Below, piece by piece: positions 4,986 through 18,967 of a stretch of 23,378 nucleotides of DNA. The stretch's first letter is position 1; each line of letters opens with the position of its first letter. Below the pieces are notes generated by a model, which saw nothing but the letters and a program-made list of their open reading frames with translations, was not told the DNA's origin and did no database searches. The DNA comes from a virus. Where the stretch lies: IMG/VR virus record IMGVR_UViG_3300017992_000087, positions 1 through 23,378 of that record. The stretch is one strand, 5' to 3'. Both the position numbers and the translations under genes were made by a program.

Positions 4986-6764
4986 ATGGGTGTAGAAGCC
5001 AAAAGATTTGATGGAAAAGATCTTTACAGGCCAGGATATTACGGAAAAAGAAATATATCTGGCTTAGATGTTGGTGCAGCAACAGGATCTAGATTATTAC
5101 TTCTTGGTGAATGTAAGGCAGGAATTCCTTATAACGCTAGTACAGAATATCCAAATGTTGAAGATAGAATTAATTGGATATCTAATAGTGAGGAATTAAA
5201 TAGAATATTAAGAGATGGCCCTGCTTATTATGGAGCTTTATTTGCACTTACACCTTCCAACCAGCCTGGAGTTAATGGAGCTCCTTCTGTTGGAGTTATA
5301 AGAGTAAATCAAGCTACAAAAAGTACATTGACAATTCAAGATGTAGATACTGATGATGTGCTAGATGTAAGTAGTAAAGATTATGGACTGTATACAAATC
5401 AAATAAGATTTAAACTTTCAGCAGGAACAAACAAAGGGAAGAAAATATCAGTGAAGTTTGAGAACAATACTGTTGAAGGAGATGATATTGCTTATGAATT
5501 ATTTAGTGTACAGTATACCGGTACTGGAAGTGCTTGTGTATTAACGATCGATCCAACTGGAAATCTTAATGCTGTAACAGTTGGTGGAGCATCTGGAGAT
5601 GATATTTCGATTGCAATAGCAACTTATGATACAATAGCAGAACTTGTAGCATATTTTAATGCATATCAAAATACAGGTGGAACAAATGTATATTCAGCAA
5701 CTTTATTGGGAGATGGAACATTTGATTCTACAAAACTTGATAAAATAGTAGTTGGCGATGCTATTGATATTAAAACAGCTAAAACTATTTCTGCAATTCT
5801 TCAAGCATGTGAAGATTGGTTTAATGGAAGTTCTACTTATTTAATTGCAGATTTAGCAACAGCAGCAGAAAGAAGAGTACCCGCAAACATGACAGGATAT
5901 GAATATATTGTTGGGGGTTCAGAAGGAGCAGCTGTTGTGACACAAGATTATACAGATTCTCTTAGCCAAATTGCTGCTTTAACTGATGCTTCTTTTGTTG
6001 GTGTAATGACAGGAAATGCAGCTATTCATGCAGTTCTTTCAACACATTTAACAGAACTTTCATCTTCTGTAGGAAGAAATGAAAGGCAAGGTTGTGTTGG
6101 AGGATTAAGTACTGATTCAAAATCTGTAAAAATAGCAGCAGCAGCTTCACTAAATAACTCTTTAGTTGGATTTTATGGAAGTGAAATAAAGAGATATGAT
6201 AAAAATGGTGATTTACAAACATGGGCGGGTTTTTATGGAGCTTGTGAGATCATGGGAATGTCAGCAGGAAATGCAATTAATTTTGCACCTACAAATAAAA
6301 TGATCAATGCAGTCGGAATAAAGACAATTCTTTCTTCTACTGATATTGACGATTACATTAAAGCTGGAATTATTGTATCGCAGCCAAGTCCTCTTGGAGG
6401 AATAAGAGTTATAAGGTCAGTGACAACTTATCAAGCATCGAACTTGATAGCAAATGAATGGAGTGCAATGAGAACGGCACTGTACATCACTAAAGATCAT
6501 AGAGTTTTTGTTGAGAGCTTAGTAGGTGAGCCGGGAGATAACACTATTCTTGAAAGTATAAAGAATAGAGCAAAAACGAGATTAGATTTTTATGTAGAGC
6601 AAGGATGGCTAGTTGTTGACCCTGCTTTAGGAAATGCATACAGAAACTTCAAATTTTCTGTGACAGGAGATACTGTTGAGATAACTTATGAGGGTACATT
6701 AGTTGTACCAGTTAATTTCATCTTTGTAACACATAATTTTACTGTAGTTGGGTTTAAAAAATAA
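4986..6764 (+). CDS. Contractile tail sheath protein
   Basis: This 592-residue protein polymerises around the tail tube and contracts during injection. ATG 4986 follows AGGAGGT at 4973-4979. The N-terminus, RFDGKDLYRPGYYGKRNISGLDVGAATGSRLLLLGECKAGIPYN, is a typical start for myophage sheaths. It is followed by a variable beta-rich insert (about 100-270). The conserved C-terminal domain contains GGIRVIRSVTTYQ, NEWSAMRTALYITKDHRVFVESLVGEPGDN, RAKTRLDFYVEQGWLV and FKFSVTGDTVEITYEGTLVVPVNFIFVTHNFTVV. The last strand probably makes the handshake contacts between subunits. The length is normal for larger sheaths. The tube, chaperone and tape measure genes follow immediately, which makes this the most secure anchor for a contractile tail. 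Confidence 0.93.
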   Translation: MGVEAKRFDGKDLYRPGYYGKRNISGLDVGAATGSRLLLLGECKAGIPYNASTEYPNVEDRINWISNSEELNRILRDGPAYYGALFALTPSNQPGVNGAPSVGVIRVNQATKSTLTIQDVDTDDVLDVSSKDYGLYTNQIRFKLSAGTNKGKKISVKFENNTVEGDDIAYELFSVQYTGTGSACVLTIDPTGNLNAVTVGGASGDDISIAIATYDTIAELVAYFNAYQNTGGTNVYSATLLGDGTFDSTKLDKIVVGDAIDIKTAKTISAILQACEDWFNGSSTYLIADLATAAERRVPANMTGYEYIVGGSEGAAVVTQDYTDSLSQIAALTDASFVGVMTGNAAIHAVLSTHLTELSSSVGRNERQGCVGGLSTDSKSVKIAAAASLNNSLVGFYGSEIKRYDKNGDLQTWAGFYGACEIMGMSAGNAINFAPTNKMINAVGIKTILSSTDIDDYIKAGIIVSQPSPLGGIRVIRSVTTYQASNLIANEWSAMRTALYITKDHRVFVESLVGEPGDNTILESIKNRAKTRLDFYVEQGWLVVDPALGNAYRNFKFSVTGDTVEITYEGTLVVPVNFIFVTHNFTVVGFKK

Positions 6765-6784: not shown

Positions 6785-7270
6785 ATGAAATCGACAAAAT
6801 TATCCTTGCTTTTTCTCTTATTATTTAGTAAAATAAGAGGAGCAGAAGACCCAGATTTACCTGTTGTTGCCGGTTTGGATGCTATTGTAAAACTTGATGG
6901 AAAAGTTATTGGATGGGCTACAAATGTTTCATTTGATGAAGACTTTGAACTTCAAGGAATAAGAACATTAGGATTTCACGGCGATAGAGGGTATAAATCT
7001 CAGGGTTATAATTGTACAATAACAGTTGGGACGTTCGTTTTACAAGGCGATGTTTCTGATAGTCTTCCAGTACCAACTAGAAGAACAATTTTAACTTCAG
7101 GATTAGTTGACTTTGAGCTTATTGATTTAATTACTGGTGGAACACTTTACATATTAAGACAATGTAAATGTGCTACTTCTGGAGTTAATCTTGATAGTGG
7201 AAGTCTATCAACGAAGAATACAACATGGCGTTGTAGAGAAGTATTGCCACAAGAAGGAAATGTTTCATAA
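6785..7270 (+). CDS. Tail tube protein with an odd hydrophobic N-terminus
   Basis: This 161-residue protein lies between the sheath and the tail assembly chaperone, the usual place of the tail tube. From about residue 28 the sequence is beta-rich and fits a tube subunit: GLDAIVKLDGKVIGWATNVSFDEDFELQGIRTLGFHGDRGYKSQGYNCTITVGTFVL. The 'V.LDG..IG.A..VSFDEDFEL' opening is common in Bacillota myophage tubes. The C-terminal half has three cysteines (CKCATSG, WRCREV). Unexpectedly, ATG 6785 adds MKSTKLSLLFLLLFSKIRGAED, which looks like a signal peptide. The AAGGAGGT at 6767-6774 is 10 bases from this ATG, a little far, but no better ATG, GTG or TTG start exists in frame. Confidence 0.75.
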   Translation: MKSTKLSLLFLLLFSKIRGAEDPDLPVVAGLDAIVKLDGKVIGWATNVSFDEDFELQGIRTLGFHGDRGYKSQGYNCTITVGTFVLQGDVSDSLPVPTRRTILTSGLVDFELIDLITGGTLYILRQCKCATSGVNLDSGSLSTKNTTWRCREVLPQEGNVS

Positions 7271-7304: not shown

Positions 7305-7655
7305 ATGAACGAAGACGAAAAAAATTCAAGTTTAGAAGTAACTGAAGAAGAGAGAACATTCACGAAGAATTTTGATAAAAGGGGGAGGTTTTCAATTTTG
7401 ATGCCTCTCCCATATCAAAAGGCTAATATCATTTCTTCAACATCTAGAGCATTAGGTGGAGCAAGCCTTGATAGTATAAAGGCGGAAGAATATGAATATA
7501 TAAGGATGATAATAACTCTCAATTTTGTTTTAAATGATACACCCAAATGGTGGAAAGGTGCAGATAACTGTGCTGATGAAGAGTTTTTATTTAAATTATG
7601 GGAATTCTTTTTAGATTCTGAGAAAAAATTTCAAGATTTATTAAAAAAAAAATAG
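7305..7655 (+). CDS. Tail assembly chaperone, short form
   Basis: This 116-residue acidic protein starts at ATG 7305 behind GAAGGAGGA at 7291-7299. It ends in KKFQDLLKKK at TAG 7653-7655, immediately after a run of ten A. The position between tail tube and tape measure, the small size and the -1 open frame that follows are the hallmarks of lambda G/GT-type chaperones, which coat the tape measure during tail assembly and are absent from the virion. Visible blocks include GRFSILMPLPYQKANIISSTSRALGG and EEYEYIRMIITLNFVLNDTPKWW, a pattern often seen in such chaperones of Bacillota myophages. The function is assigned mainly from context. The frameshifted extension is listed separately. Confidence 0.8.
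   Translation: MNEDEKNSSLEVTEEERTFTKNFDKRGRFSILMPLPYQKANIISSTSRALGGASLDSIKAEEYEYIRMIITLNFVLNDTPKWWKGADNCADEEFLFKLWEFFLDSEKKFQDLLKKK
7643..7652 (+). other. Poly-A slippery site for -1 programmed frameshift
   Basis: Ten consecutive A residues are read as AAA AAA AAA in the chaperone frame, directly before TAG 7653-7655. A -1 slip keeps perfect A-A pairing and enters a frame that is open from the slip to TGA 8021-8023. A mixed population of short and long chaperones would result. No clear downstream hairpin or upstream internal Shine-Dalgarno stimulator was seen. Long A runs can also slip on their own, including at transcription. Confidence 0.75.
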
Positions 7656-8023
7656 AGATATCAGAATTTAAAGACCCATTAACGTTCATTGATTTTTGGA
7701 TATTAAGTAAGTTCAATATTTTGCCTACTGATATAAAGTTTCAATCTTTATATTTAGAGCAGAAAATTGCGTTATTTGAAGGTGTTAATAATTTACCAGA
7801 TCATAAAGAGATCTCTAAGCACCTTAAAATAACAAAAGCTCTTGATAGAATAAAGAAAAAGAAACCGAATGAATTAGTATCTTTAGGTTTAATAAAGAAT
7901 ATGAGAAATGCATTCAAACAACAAGGAATGCAAGATGAAGAAATCGAAAGAAGAATCAAGGAGCATTGTGAAAGAATGAAAAAGCTTGAAATTAAAAGTT
8001 TGGAGAAATCGTTAAATGGCTGA
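7649..8023 (+). CDS. Tail assembly chaperone, -1 frameshift extension (T part)
   Basis: After a -1 slip on the A run the frame reads KKIEISEFKDPLTFIDFWILSKFNILPTDIKFQSLYLEQKI and continues to TGA 8021-8023. It adds about 124 residues, giving a fusion of about 239. No ATG with a ribosome binding site starts this frame. The first usable codon is TTG 7721, which has no good site and would lose a conserved-looking helical part, so independent translation is less likely. The C-terminal part is strongly charged and helical (RRIKEHCERMKKLEIKSLEKSL), suited to binding the tape measure. Its stop overlaps the tape measure start by eight bases, so the ribosomes that shift frame may feed tape measure translation. 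Confidence 0.78.
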   Translation, partial: KIEISEFKDPLTFIDFWILSKFNILPTDIKFQSLYLEQKIALFEGVNNLPDHKEISKHLKITKALDRIKKKKPNELVSLGLIKNMRNAFKQQGMQDEEIERRIKEHCERMKKLEIKSLEKSLNG

Positions 8024-9818
8024 TGAACTAAAATTTAAAATTGGAGCCGTTGATGACACTAAAAAGGCATTTGAATCTGCTAAAAAGAGAGCAGGGGAAA
8101 TGCTTGAAAAATACAAGGATCTAGCTAAAGCTGGATTAACTCCATCTGGTGAACATAAATCTCTTAAGAAAATGGAGAATCAATTTAAGAAAATAGTTGA
8201 TCAGATGAAAAACGCTGGAAAAGAATCTCAAAAAATGTTTAGAAGGCCTTCCGGAACTGCTGGAAGAGGTGCAGGATTAGAAGGACAAATATCTGGAGCA
8301 GAAGCGTTAACGACTGGTAGAGAAGATGTATTTCTTGCATCTAAAATAGGTGATCTAGGAAAAGCATTAAAAGCAAGTTCTAATACGTTTAAAGAGAATA
8401 TGCAATCTTCATCTAAAGAAATGGAAAAAATAAAATCTGGAGCTAAAGATTTAGGTGGAATATTTAAGAGAATTGGAATAGGTGGTGGTGGAGCGGGAAC
8501 TGGAGCAGGGATTGGAGGCAGAACTCCAATAGACGTAACTAATGAGCAAGCATCAGCGCTTCAAGAAGCAGGCAAAACATTACCCGCTGTGGGTATAGCA
8601 TTAGCAGCTGTTGCGGGTCTTTATAAAGTTATGTCAGCAATGTCAAATGCATTTAGACAAAGAGCTGGAGCTCAAATGACAGGTATTCAAACTTTAGGAT
8701 ATGCAGGTGGGGGAAAAGGCGGATTCTACGAAGGTGATCCATTATTGGGAATTCAGGGCGCAGAAAAAGTTAATTTAATGGCTGCGTATGCAAGACAAAC
8801 AATGGGAAGAACTGGAGAACAATTTGGCCCTGCAGGTTCTAGAGTTGATAAAATGATGAGAGCAATGGCGACTTATGGATTGTCTGCAGGTCAAGTTGGA
8901 GGGTATGCAGGAACTTTTGACAGATTTAGAAAACAAGAAGAAATAAAAAATAACACAATGATGATGTCATTAGGAGCTGCTGAAGAAGTAGGAATGGGAG
9001 GAGCAAGAACTGTAGAGTTTTTAGATAATGTGAAAAGTGCATTAAGTGATGCAGTATATTCGGGAACTAAAAGATCAAATAAAGATATTATAACTTCATT
9101 GATGGCTTTTTCAAGTAATTCAGATGAAAGAATAAAAGCTTTAGCTCCTCAAATAATGAGTGCATCTACAACTCTTTTTGGTAGAGCGGCAATGATGGAA
9201 GGAGGAGCGGCAGAATCTTTTGCAATGCAATCTGTATGGAATAAAATGAAAAGAGAAAAACAAGGCCCAGTTTCATTTTTTGATGTACAGAAACAAATGG
9301 TAAGAAATCCATTATATGGTACAAAATCAATGGTTGAAGAAGCTGAAAAACTTTTTCCAGGAAATAAAGATCTTGCTGCTCTTTGGTTGCAGAAATCAGG
9401 AGCATTTGGTAGAGTTCAAGATGTAGACGTCATGAAAAGTATAATGGAATCTGTTAAGACATTCGATGCTTCAAAAAGTGGTAAAATGACGCCAGAAGCT
9501 TTAGCAGCTAAAGGAGAAGGTGTTGTAGAATCTCGTCTTGAAAAACTTACTGGAGCAATAGAACTTACAAAAGCACAAGATGTAAGAGATTCAAATATCG
9601 CATTGATTGGCGTTAATGAAACTATGGTAAAAACAACTCAAGAATTAAAGACTTCTATACAAAATTTAATTAAAAGTCTTGATAGATATAGAGAAATGAC
9701 ACCAAAGCAACAAGTTCAAGCAGATTTAACAAACCCAATTAATCAATGGAGAATGATTTTCAGCCCTACTTATAGGAGTAGTTTAAAAAAGAAATTGACG
9801 GGAAATAGAGCACAATGA
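8016..9818 (+). CDS. Tail tape measure protein
   Basis: This 600-residue protein follows the frameshifted chaperone directly, overlapping it by eight bases, which is the standard tape measure position. The N-terminal 100 residues are charged and helical (VDDTKKAFESAKKRAGEMLEKYKDL, SLKKMENQFKKIVDQMKNA). A Gly-rich hinge follows (GIGGGGAGTGAGIGG, about 153-167), then a hydrophobic helix TLPAVGIALAAVAGLYKVMSAM (about 188-209) that could insert in the host membrane at infection. The rest is helical and rich in Ala, Met, Lys and Gly. There is no obvious peptidase or transglycosylase motif. With about 0.15 nm per residue, 600 residues would set a tail of roughly 90 nm, short for a myophage. This is an estimate, not a measurement. 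Confidence 0.82.
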   Translation: MADELKFKIGAVDDTKKAFESAKKRAGEMLEKYKDLAKAGLTPSGEHKSLKKMENQFKKIVDQMKNAGKESQKMFRRPSGTAGRGAGLEGQISGAEALTTGREDVFLASKIGDLGKALKASSNTFKENMQSSSKEMEKIKSGAKDLGGIFKRIGIGGGGAGTGAGIGGRTPIDVTNEQASALQEAGKTLPAVGIALAAVAGLYKVMSAMSNAFRQRAGAQMTGIQTLGYAGGGKGGFYEGDPLLGIQGAEKVNLMAAYARQTMGRTGEQFGPAGSRVDKMMRAMATYGLSAGQVGGYAGTFDRFRKQEEIKNNTMMMSLGAAEEVGMGGARTVEFLDNVKSALSDAVYSGTKRSNKDIITSLMAFSSNSDERIKALAPQIMSASTTLFGRAAMMEGGAAESFAMQSVWNKMKREKQGPVSFFDVQKQMVRNPLYGTKSMVEEAEKLFPGNKDLAALWLQKSGAFGRVQDVDVMKSIMESVKTFDASKSGKMTPEALAAKGEGVVESRLEKLTGAIELTKAQDVRDSNIALIGVNETMVKTTQELKTSIQNLIKSLDRYREMTPKQQVQADLTNPINQWRMIFSPTYRSSLKKKLTGNRAQ

Positions 9819-11473
9819 CAAAAGCAAATTATTCAGCACCATATATTGAAGTAACTTTTACGTCAGTCAAAGGAGATAAGTTTTCTGTTAATAGCGGAGA
9901 ATTTGGAGGAGATATAATCTCATTAAGAACTCAAAAAAATTTAGGAGTTTCAGCTGGAGGATTTTCAATACAATTAGTTGGAAGGCAAAGATATAAAGAT
10001 TTTTTTAAACTAAATGTTAAAGAAGATGTTCATGCTTTCGATATATTTAGGCCTATGGGATTAGTAGATATTTATATAAATGGTAAAGAACAAATGCTTG
10101 GAATAATTGATAGTGTTTCAAAATCAGAATCTTTTAGAGGAGATAAGCCTTCAAGAATCGTTACTATAATGGGAAGAGATATGACAGCATTATTATTAGA
10201 ACATAAAGTATGGTACGATAATAAATTGTCTAAAGGAAGATTATATAATTATGCTATGATGGGTGGAGCTCTTGCATTCGGTTTGATTGGAGGTGAAAGT
10301 CCAGCAAGATTAATAATGCAAATATATAATACTTGGATGGTTAAAGTAATGAATCAAATCCAACCTGATGTTGTAAATAGTAAGTTTGGATTTGTAGACG
10401 GAGATGAGATTCAGGATAAATTGATTGGAATAACAGAAAGTGATGGATTTTTTAATGTATTAGCAGATTCAGATGTTATGTATTATAATGAAAAAGGAAA
10501 GAGGCAGATAGTAAAAAAAGGAGATATATTAAGCACTGTAAAAGGATCTGGAGCTCTTTCTGAAATAACTTATGGAAACTATTATCCTATGCAATTTTCT
10601 GTATGGAATTATCAAGGTGATCTAATGAATTTCATTAAGCAATTCGCTTCGTATCCTTTTAATGAATTATATGTAGAAACAGGAGATACAGAAGTTGTAA
10701 TAGGAAATTTAAGAGAATTCTCTGGAACAATATGGACAGAGGCTAATAGCTTTTATGATGCGAATGCAAATGATGGAAAAGGAGAGAATATACAACTTTC
10801 AAGTACATCTACTTTAAAAAAAGGAAAGAGAACAAAAAAGCTTTTAAAAGGAAAAGCTTATATTGTTTTAAGGCCTACTCCTTATGATGATGATTCTGTT
10901 GAAAGTAATATATTTACAGGAATGGAAAGTTTATTGATGATGAAAGATCTTAATAAATATGTAGTTTATGATTCTTTAATTGTTGAAAAGAACTTAATGA
11001 TTGGACGGAATAACAAGCCTACATTTTATTCAGTTACTCCTAGCAATGGATTAATAACTGGAGATTGTGCAAAAATAGTTGCGAATGCAGAATATGATGA
11101 AAATGCTTTAAGAAGATATGGCTATAACTCATTAGAGGCTAAATTAGATGCAATGGATATTGGCAGTAAAAGTTATAAACACGGAGGAATTATCAGCACT
11201 TGTAATGTTTTTCAAAAGAAATTAAGAAGCTGGTATCAAAATTCAGATAGATATCTTTCTGGAACAATGACGATTCAAGGGAATGAAAAAATAAGAGTTG
11301 GGAATGTATTATCTTATGAAAGAGAATCTGGGCAGATTGATGATGATTATGAAGAAGGAAAATATTATATAACTGGGATCATACAAAATTATGTTTATGG
11401 CGGAATATTTGAGTCAACATTAACTTTAGAGAGAGGAGTCTCAAGTAAAATTTTAAAGAAGGGTGAGAATTAA
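9815..11473 (+). CDS. Baseplate hub protein (gp27/gpD-like)
   Basis: This 552-residue protein overlaps the tape measure by four bases (ATGA) and the spike gene by one base. The start SAPYIEVTFTSVKGDKFSVNSGEFGGDIISLRTQKNLGVSAGGFSIQLVGRQRYKDFF describes the first tube-like barrel. It is followed by DVHAFDIFRPMGLVDIYINGKEQMLGIIDSVSKSESFRGDKPSRIVTIMGRDMTALLLEH, a pattern typical of hub proteins that form the ring at the tail tip. The C-terminus has YLSGTMTIQGNEKIRVGNVLSYERESG...YYITGIIQNYVYGGIFESTLTLERG, the usual last barrel of gpD-type hubs. It joins the tail tube to the spike. Position between tape measure and OB-fold spike agrees. Confidence 0.82.
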   Translation: MTKANYSAPYIEVTFTSVKGDKFSVNSGEFGGDIISLRTQKNLGVSAGGFSIQLVGRQRYKDFFKLNVKEDVHAFDIFRPMGLVDIYINGKEQMLGIIDSVSKSESFRGDKPSRIVTIMGRDMTALLLEHKVWYDNKLSKGRLYNYAMMGGALAFGLIGGESPARLIMQIYNTWMVKVMNQIQPDVVNSKFGFVDGDEIQDKLIGITESDGFFNVLADSDVMYYNEKGKRQIVKKGDILSTVKGSGALSEITYGNYYPMQFSVWNYQGDLMNFIKQFASYPFNELYVETGDTEVVIGNLREFSGTIWTEANSFYDANANDGKGENIQLSSTSTLKKGKRTKKLLKGKAYIVLRPTPYDDDSVESNIFTGMESLLMMKDLNKYVVYDSLIVEKNLMIGRNNKPTFYSVTPSNGLITGDCAKIVANAEYDENALRRYGYNSLEAKLDAMDIGSKSYKHGGIISTCNVFQKKLRSWYQNSDRYLSGTMTIQGNEKIRVGNVLSYERESGQIDDDYEEGKYYITGIIQNYVYGGIFESTLTLERGVSSKILKKGEN

Positions 11474-18337: not shown

Positions 18338-18967
18338 ATGAAAGAATGGTTAAGTCCAGGAAAATCAAAATCAATATATTTTACAACTAGTGGCAATTTT
18401 ATTGTACCAGCAGGTGTATCGCTAGTATGGGTTACTATATGGGGGGGTGGCGGCGGTGGTGCAGATAATGATGTGTCCGCAGAAGGAGGAGGCTCAGGGA
18501 TGGCGATTGTCAGAGAATCAGTAACAGTAACTCCAGGAGAAACTATAGCTGTTGTAGTTGGTGCAGGCGGTGCTGGTAGCTCTTCTGGTGGGCCGAGTGC
18601 AGGTAATGATAGTACTTTTGGTTCCTATATAACTGCTGATGGAGCGCAGGCTGGTGGTATTGGTGGCGGAAGATTAGGTGGTGCGCTTGACACTGAAGGA
18701 GACAATATTAATAATATAGTATTTGGTTCTGGTGGTGGTTCTGAAGGAAATGATGGTGCTGGGATGCATTTATATAATGGTGGCGCCCTTACTGTCAATT
18801 CTGGTGGTGGTGCTGCTGGATTTAATGGTGACGGGGCTGATGGCAGTGAAACTTCACCCGCAAATGATGCTGATGCTAATAGTGGAGCTGGCGGTGGTGG
18901 TGTGAACCAAAATGCTGCTGGTGGCGATGGTGGTTCTGGTGGATGTATTATAGAATTTATAAGATAA
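18338..18967 (+). CDS. Glycine-rich tail adhesin
   Basis: This 209-residue protein starts at ATG 18338 behind AGGAGG at 18325-18330. The N-terminus has the pattern SIYFTTSGNFIVPAGVSLVWVTIWGGGGGG (residues 12-41), a beta-sandwich start common to glycine-rich phage surface proteins. It is followed by many Gly motifs: VVVGAGGAGSSSGG (72-85), AQAGGIGGGRLGG (103-115), FGSGGGSEGNDG (129-140), NSGGGAAGFNGDGADG (154-169) and NSGAGGGGVNQNAAGGDGGSGG (181-202), ending CIIEFIR. Such glycine blocks form polyglycine II sandwiches in the S16 gp38 adhesin, with variable loops that bind the receptor. It is probably the distal host-recognition protein. The DNA is repetitive and richer in GC (many GGTGGT). Confidence 0.72.
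   Translation: MKEWLSPGKSKSIYFTTSGNFIVPAGVSLVWVTIWGGGGGGADNDVSAEGGGSGMAIVRESVTVTPGETIAVVVGAGGAGSSSGGPSAGNDSTFGSYITADGAQAGGIGGGRLGGALDTEGDNINNIVFGSGGGSEGNDGAGMHLYNGGALTVNSGGGAAGFNGDGADGSETSPANDADANSGAGGGGVNQNAAGGDGGSGGCIIEFIR

Follow-up and report, generated by a model that had tools for sequence, protein, structure and literature searches.

The window analysed here is a 23,378-nucleotide virus record of 31% G+C that carries structural genes of a contractile-tailed phage. On the + strand, a tail sheath gene (4986..6764; phrog_279, E 5e-45; Pfam PF04984, E 3e-6, under its cut-off) is followed by a tail tube gene (6785..7270), which we assigned from its position after the sheath and its alignment with LE1 and Leptospira proteins in the same place; its product is 55-84% identical to its counterparts in close relatives. 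Next on this strand lie the two halves of a putative tail assembly chaperone: a 116-amino-acid N half in frame 0 (7305..7655) and a C half in the -1 frame (7652..8023) that would be reached by slippage on a run of ten A's (7643..7652, +; A9 in all relatives found to carry it). The following + strand gene (8016..9818) overlaps the end of the C half; it stands in tape-measure position and had no PHROG or Pfam match. After it comes a tail protein gene (9815..11473, +) related to the 'tail protein with lysin activity' family (phrog_1015, E 6.5e-24), and further structural genes of the window include baseplate J and tail fibre genes. A run of seven G's (18441-18447) inside a tail-fibre-type gene (18338-18967) is compositionally unusual at 31% G+C and is possibly a slippage or phase-variation site. 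An Rfam scan of the window gave no match, and tRNA genes were absent from the phage contigs scanned.

Read directly from the window sequence, the run is exactly ten A's. Frame 0, from ATG 7305, ends in TTA AAA AAA AAA TAG, with the stop (7653-7655, +) abutting the run. No stop interrupts the -1 frame between 7622 and TGA 8021-8023, which gives a fused reading of 239 amino acids. A preliminary description of this DNA had given the same run, the same three AAA codons before the TAG and the same open -1 frame with a fusion of about 239 residues, all of which were reproduced. Its junction peptide, LLKKKK followed by IEISEF, has to be corrected, as a -1 slip yields FQDLLKKK-IEISEF. It had also pointed to A9 and A11 transcript variants: an A11 transcript does join the two frames, whereas an A9 transcript enters the third frame and reaches a stop 17 nt after the run. 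By the same frame reading, an A8 transcript would likewise fuse the window's frames. The A10 recurs in two further IMG/VR records whose DNA is 100% identical, although the samples may be related; three records agree and the run is not the fault of one contig, so a sequencing error is disfavoured.

Both halves resemble the chaperone of Bacillus phage SPO1. The N half matched the SPO1 gp10.2-type N half (hhalign 98.1%, E 1.3e-13) as well as phrog_1038, a tail assembly chaperone family (E 5e-5), and the C half matched the gp11.1-type C half (hhalign profile E 4.9e-8, 41% identity over 34 columns). A further family, phrog_25000 (tail-assembly-chaperone), spans the junction of the fused protein at residues 34-159 (E 7e-8). 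The locus also occupies the SPO1-type position, after sheath and tube and before the tape-measure region. A fold search with the N half placed 2ob9, the HK97 chaperone, as the top PDB match, at a level that is not significant (E 0.25, TM 0.34). From these sequence comparisons we identify the locus as an SPO1-type tail assembly chaperone homologue that does not use the SPO1-type +1 site. Because both halves are homologous to gp10.2 and gp11.1, a functional fusion of the two is likely. The proposal of a tail assembly chaperone with an out-of-frame C half thus held, borne out by the usual sheath-tube-chaperone place and the profile matches. The lambda G/GT-type context that was proposed with it stood for the chaperone, the two frames and the gene place, but the sequence kinship is SPO1-type rather than lambda G/T.

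The C half could instead be translated from its own start, or the junction could reflect plain gene decay without a functional fusion. LE1 gp33 is indeed annotated as a separate gene. In the window, however, the first ATG, GTG or TTG in the C frame lies 78 nt past the start of the run, within the conserved domain, and no C-frame start codon precedes the conserved IDFWI motif; the other loci resemble the window, with a few near candidates at most. The C half is conserved across all relatives, none of which offers a start codon from which an entire C half could be made in place of the fusion, and the SPO1 counterpart is expressed solely as a fusion, per its record. Homologues with an independently started second frame and no run, to which the preliminary description had looked for contrary evidence, did not occur among relatives in the A-run group. 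We regard separate translation or decay as very improbable.

Single-protein searches with the chaperone halves reached identical contigs only, and useful close relatives were obtained through searches with the tube and sheath proteins. Exactly nine A's mark the junction in Leptospira phages and prophages of the LE1 type, whose C half is in +1; this set comprises five GenBank records together with 15 IMG/VR loci, of which LE1 itself is one. Among the other relatives, L036, L037 and L042 carry A9 with the C half in -1, as in the window, and L043 and L045 carry A9 with the C half in +1. In a tree built on the tube plus the N half, the four -1 phages group in a single clade (support 93/96) that sits within +1 phages carrying the same A9, and only one change of direction is resolved; the direction therefore flipped while the run stayed. 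The -1 direction given in the preliminary description accordingly holds for the window's clade and is not general, since close relatives are +1 from the same A9.

The positions of stops place the shift at the run. In the +1 phages the T preceding the run gives rise to a TAA, which blocks the C frame; this frame becomes open 2 nt into the run, and the shift must therefore occur inside the run or immediately beyond it. Frame 0 of the -1 phages meets its stop 1-5 nt downstream of the run. These readings correct gene models in Leptospira LE1-type phages, in which the C half was missed or annotated separately. The GenBank proteins of LalZ, LnoZ and LbrZ (L007:6528-7181, L008:6447-7085 and L009:6295-6918) continue in frame 0 for some 100 codons beyond the A9 and therefore omit the conserved C half, which is in +1; the KF114876/877/879 records annotate frame 0 as a single protein of ~207-217 amino acids that lacks it. 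Five Leptospira prophage loci (L022, L023, L028, L029 and L031) have a second in-frame A9 (TAC AAA AAA AAA GAG/GAA) ~32 nt upstream of the junction run, and in L022 a +1 slip at this second A9, in the N half, would hit a stop ahead of the junction.

The window's tenth A occupies a position held by C or T in its relatives. The run plus the spacer to a conserved Asp, counted from the printed sequences, measures 48 nt in every phage of the -1 clade, compared with 44 or 50 nt for L043 and L045. Because this length is constant within the clade and the relatives have C or T there, the tenth A fits an origin by substitution rather than insertion. The same observations bear on DNA-level phase variation, in which genomic run length would differ between virions and toggle the fusion. 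A homopolymer at a frame junction, A9 in some species and A10 in another, is what such a switch might look like; yet the 48 nt are kept in all four -1 phages, the tenth A reads as a substitution and not an indel, the three records of the window phage are all A10 and no fused A8 or A11 genome was seen. We consider phase variation exceedingly improbable.

A run of this length is unsurprising by composition, as synonymous shuffles of the window yield ~2-3 coding runs of A9 or longer. An argument from the rarity of A10 was set aside for this reason, and the significance of the run rests on its conservation in relatives. The junction reads Leu(TTA/CTA)-AAA-AAA-AA(T/C/A) in 14 of 14 representatives chosen below 85% identity, with A9 throughout except for the window's A10, and all reach the homopolymer length of at least 8-9 nt associated with transcriptional slippage. 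Most of the other conserved residues have a codon identity of ~0.2-0.6, and synonymous sites away from the junction are scrambled. From each phage's codon usage, the chance of such conservation is ~10^-6.4, a figure that assumes independent third positions and is overstated by shared ancestry. This pattern argues that the A run is a programmed recoding site and a conserved element of the junction.

Elsewhere in the phage contigs long A runs are avoided. We counted 9 coding runs of A9 or longer against 41.1 expected, a ~4.5-fold depletion (the minimum of 200 shuffles was 30), and the depletion is seen in each of the three codon phases. The ratio of observed to expected coding runs falls with length, from ~1.0 for A4-A6 to 0.83 for A7, 0.58 for A8, 0.31 for A9 and 0.18 for A10, with no run of A11 or longer against 8 expected. 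Chaperone junctions account for 4 of the 9 surviving runs. A 1128-amino-acid open reading frame to the left of the window (L066:10778-14161) has two A9 runs (11783 and 12473) and is an exception to the avoidance. Depletion of A and T runs, with avoidance from about nine nucleotides, is a signature used for transcriptional slippage (PMC1088944), and the length-dependent depletion found here matches it; it could alternatively stem from ribosome slippage or replication errors. Borrelia, among AT-rich bacteria, shows no A-run avoidance and may suppress slippage (PMC1088944); two scans of genome contigs for a bacterial or prophage copy of the window phage, which could have pointed to its host, found none.

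Ribosomes that slide along the poly(A) run and resume in several frames would be as free of direction as a slipping polymerase. On poly(A), sliding E. coli ribosomes do enter several frames, and genes avoid iterated AAA codons (PMC4363877). The minimum in that E. coli system is 11 A's, against the nine conserved here (PMC4363877), and the depletion of long runs extends to all codon phases; sliding is thus an improbable account of the junction.

Classical -1 ribosomal frameshifting is the main rival to polymerase slippage. Two Lys-tRNAs would step back by one on A_AAA_AAA in the window's clade, and the +1 relatives would put the run to use for a different ribosomal event, either +1 or -2. The heptamer (X_XXY_YYZ) is present in phase at the window site, and the rule is satisfied in all four -1 phages; tail genes have known examples of ribosomal shifts by -1, +1 and -2, unstimulated low-level shifts are known in tailed phages (PMC5009743), comparable slips occur in lambda-like phages and IS elements, and the record of SPO1 itself gives +1 ribosomal slippage. 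Downstream folding in the window gave z scores of -0.4 to +0.05, nothing above shuffles, and no common downstream structure was found among relatives, in keeping with the earlier remark that no pseudoknot was evident. A pseudoknot or stem-loop stimulator was rejected as not conserved; L037 alone has a downstream hairpin that beats shuffles (L037:2776-2875, z -2.9). The missing stimulator does not discriminate between mechanisms, because some tailed phages frameshift without one (PMC5009743). What weighs against ribosomal slippage is that seven A's would suffice and yet nine are kept, and that a heptamer gives one direction, leaving the same A9 in the +1 phages unexplained. Those phages have no frame-0 stop after the run to drive a +1 shift there, and the homologues that share the site conserve neither a structure nor a direction. 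We therefore consider ribosomal -1 slippage a possible but rather unlikely explanation.

Opposite directions from one A9 favour slippage by RNA polymerase, since bases would be both added and removed, and we infer that transcriptional rather than translational slippage on the run is probably what joins the frames. The preliminary description had raised transcriptional slippage as a possibility; the +1 relatives on the same A9 promote it to the preferred reading, with ribosomal -1 slippage as its chief competitor. There is precedent in the A9 of Thermus thermophilus dnaX (PMC3711429), where polymerase slippage is documented, with mRNAs of 8, 10, 11 or 13 A's as examples (PMC1088944). A phage-encoded multisubunit RNA polymerase was rejected, with no PF00562 match in five contigs. 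In the proposed sequence of events, RNA polymerase would slip on the A10 and produce a mixed mRNA population. Faithful A10 transcripts would encode the short chaperone of 116 amino acids, and A11 or A8 transcripts, longer by one A or shorter by two, would encode a long form of 239 or 238 amino acids, presumably the minority product. The lambda pair gpG/gpGT suggests roles for both products: the short form may coat the tape measure, and the long one may recruit tube protein (PMC5009743).

We lean, with somewhat less confidence, towards a history in which this contractile-tailed phage family swapped a +1 ribosomal chaperone frameshift for polymerase slippage on A9, after which the C frame flipped from +1 to -1 without functional loss. 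SPO1, PHB04, ST4, Dolphis and the Thermus phages Cumys and Lalka8 have the C half in +1 and no junction A run. Direction would be evolutionarily free because slippage makes both longer and shorter runs. The clade would then show that a recoding mechanism can be exchanged while its products persist, and a constant slip site with a flipping direction is a natural experiment for telling slippage of the polymerase apart from that of the ribosome. Programmed frameshifting has some of its most widespread examples in frame-fused tail chaperones, and those from tails that we found in the literature are credited to the ribosome. Provisionally, in the open-access PMC literature, we found no published tail chaperone credited to polymerase slippage.

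Several known systems can be compared with the locus. With SPO1 gp10.2-gp11.1 it shares homologous halves, gene order and fusion through a frame change at the junction, but the SPO1 record annotates a single chaperone whose parts are linked through +1 ribosomal slippage, at a site that is not a homopolymer, whereas the window's clade would shift -1 on A10 or A9. Leptospira phage LE1 gp32/gp33 and the LE1-type prophages share homologous halves and the conserved junction A9, and differ in having the C half in +1 instead of -1. Lambda gpG/gpGT likewise has a short and a frame-fused long chaperone between the tube and tape measure genes, made by a -1 ribosomal slip on GGGAAAG instead of an A run. 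Programmed transcriptional slippage (Thermus dnaX A9, Shigella mxiE/spa13, IS elements and Citrobacter tssM A11) offers the likeness of a homopolymer of ~9-11 nt, no stimulators, a conserved run and depletion elsewhere. The present family would differ from the cases found, none of them a phage tail chaperone, both in its product and in a direction that is not fixed among relatives.
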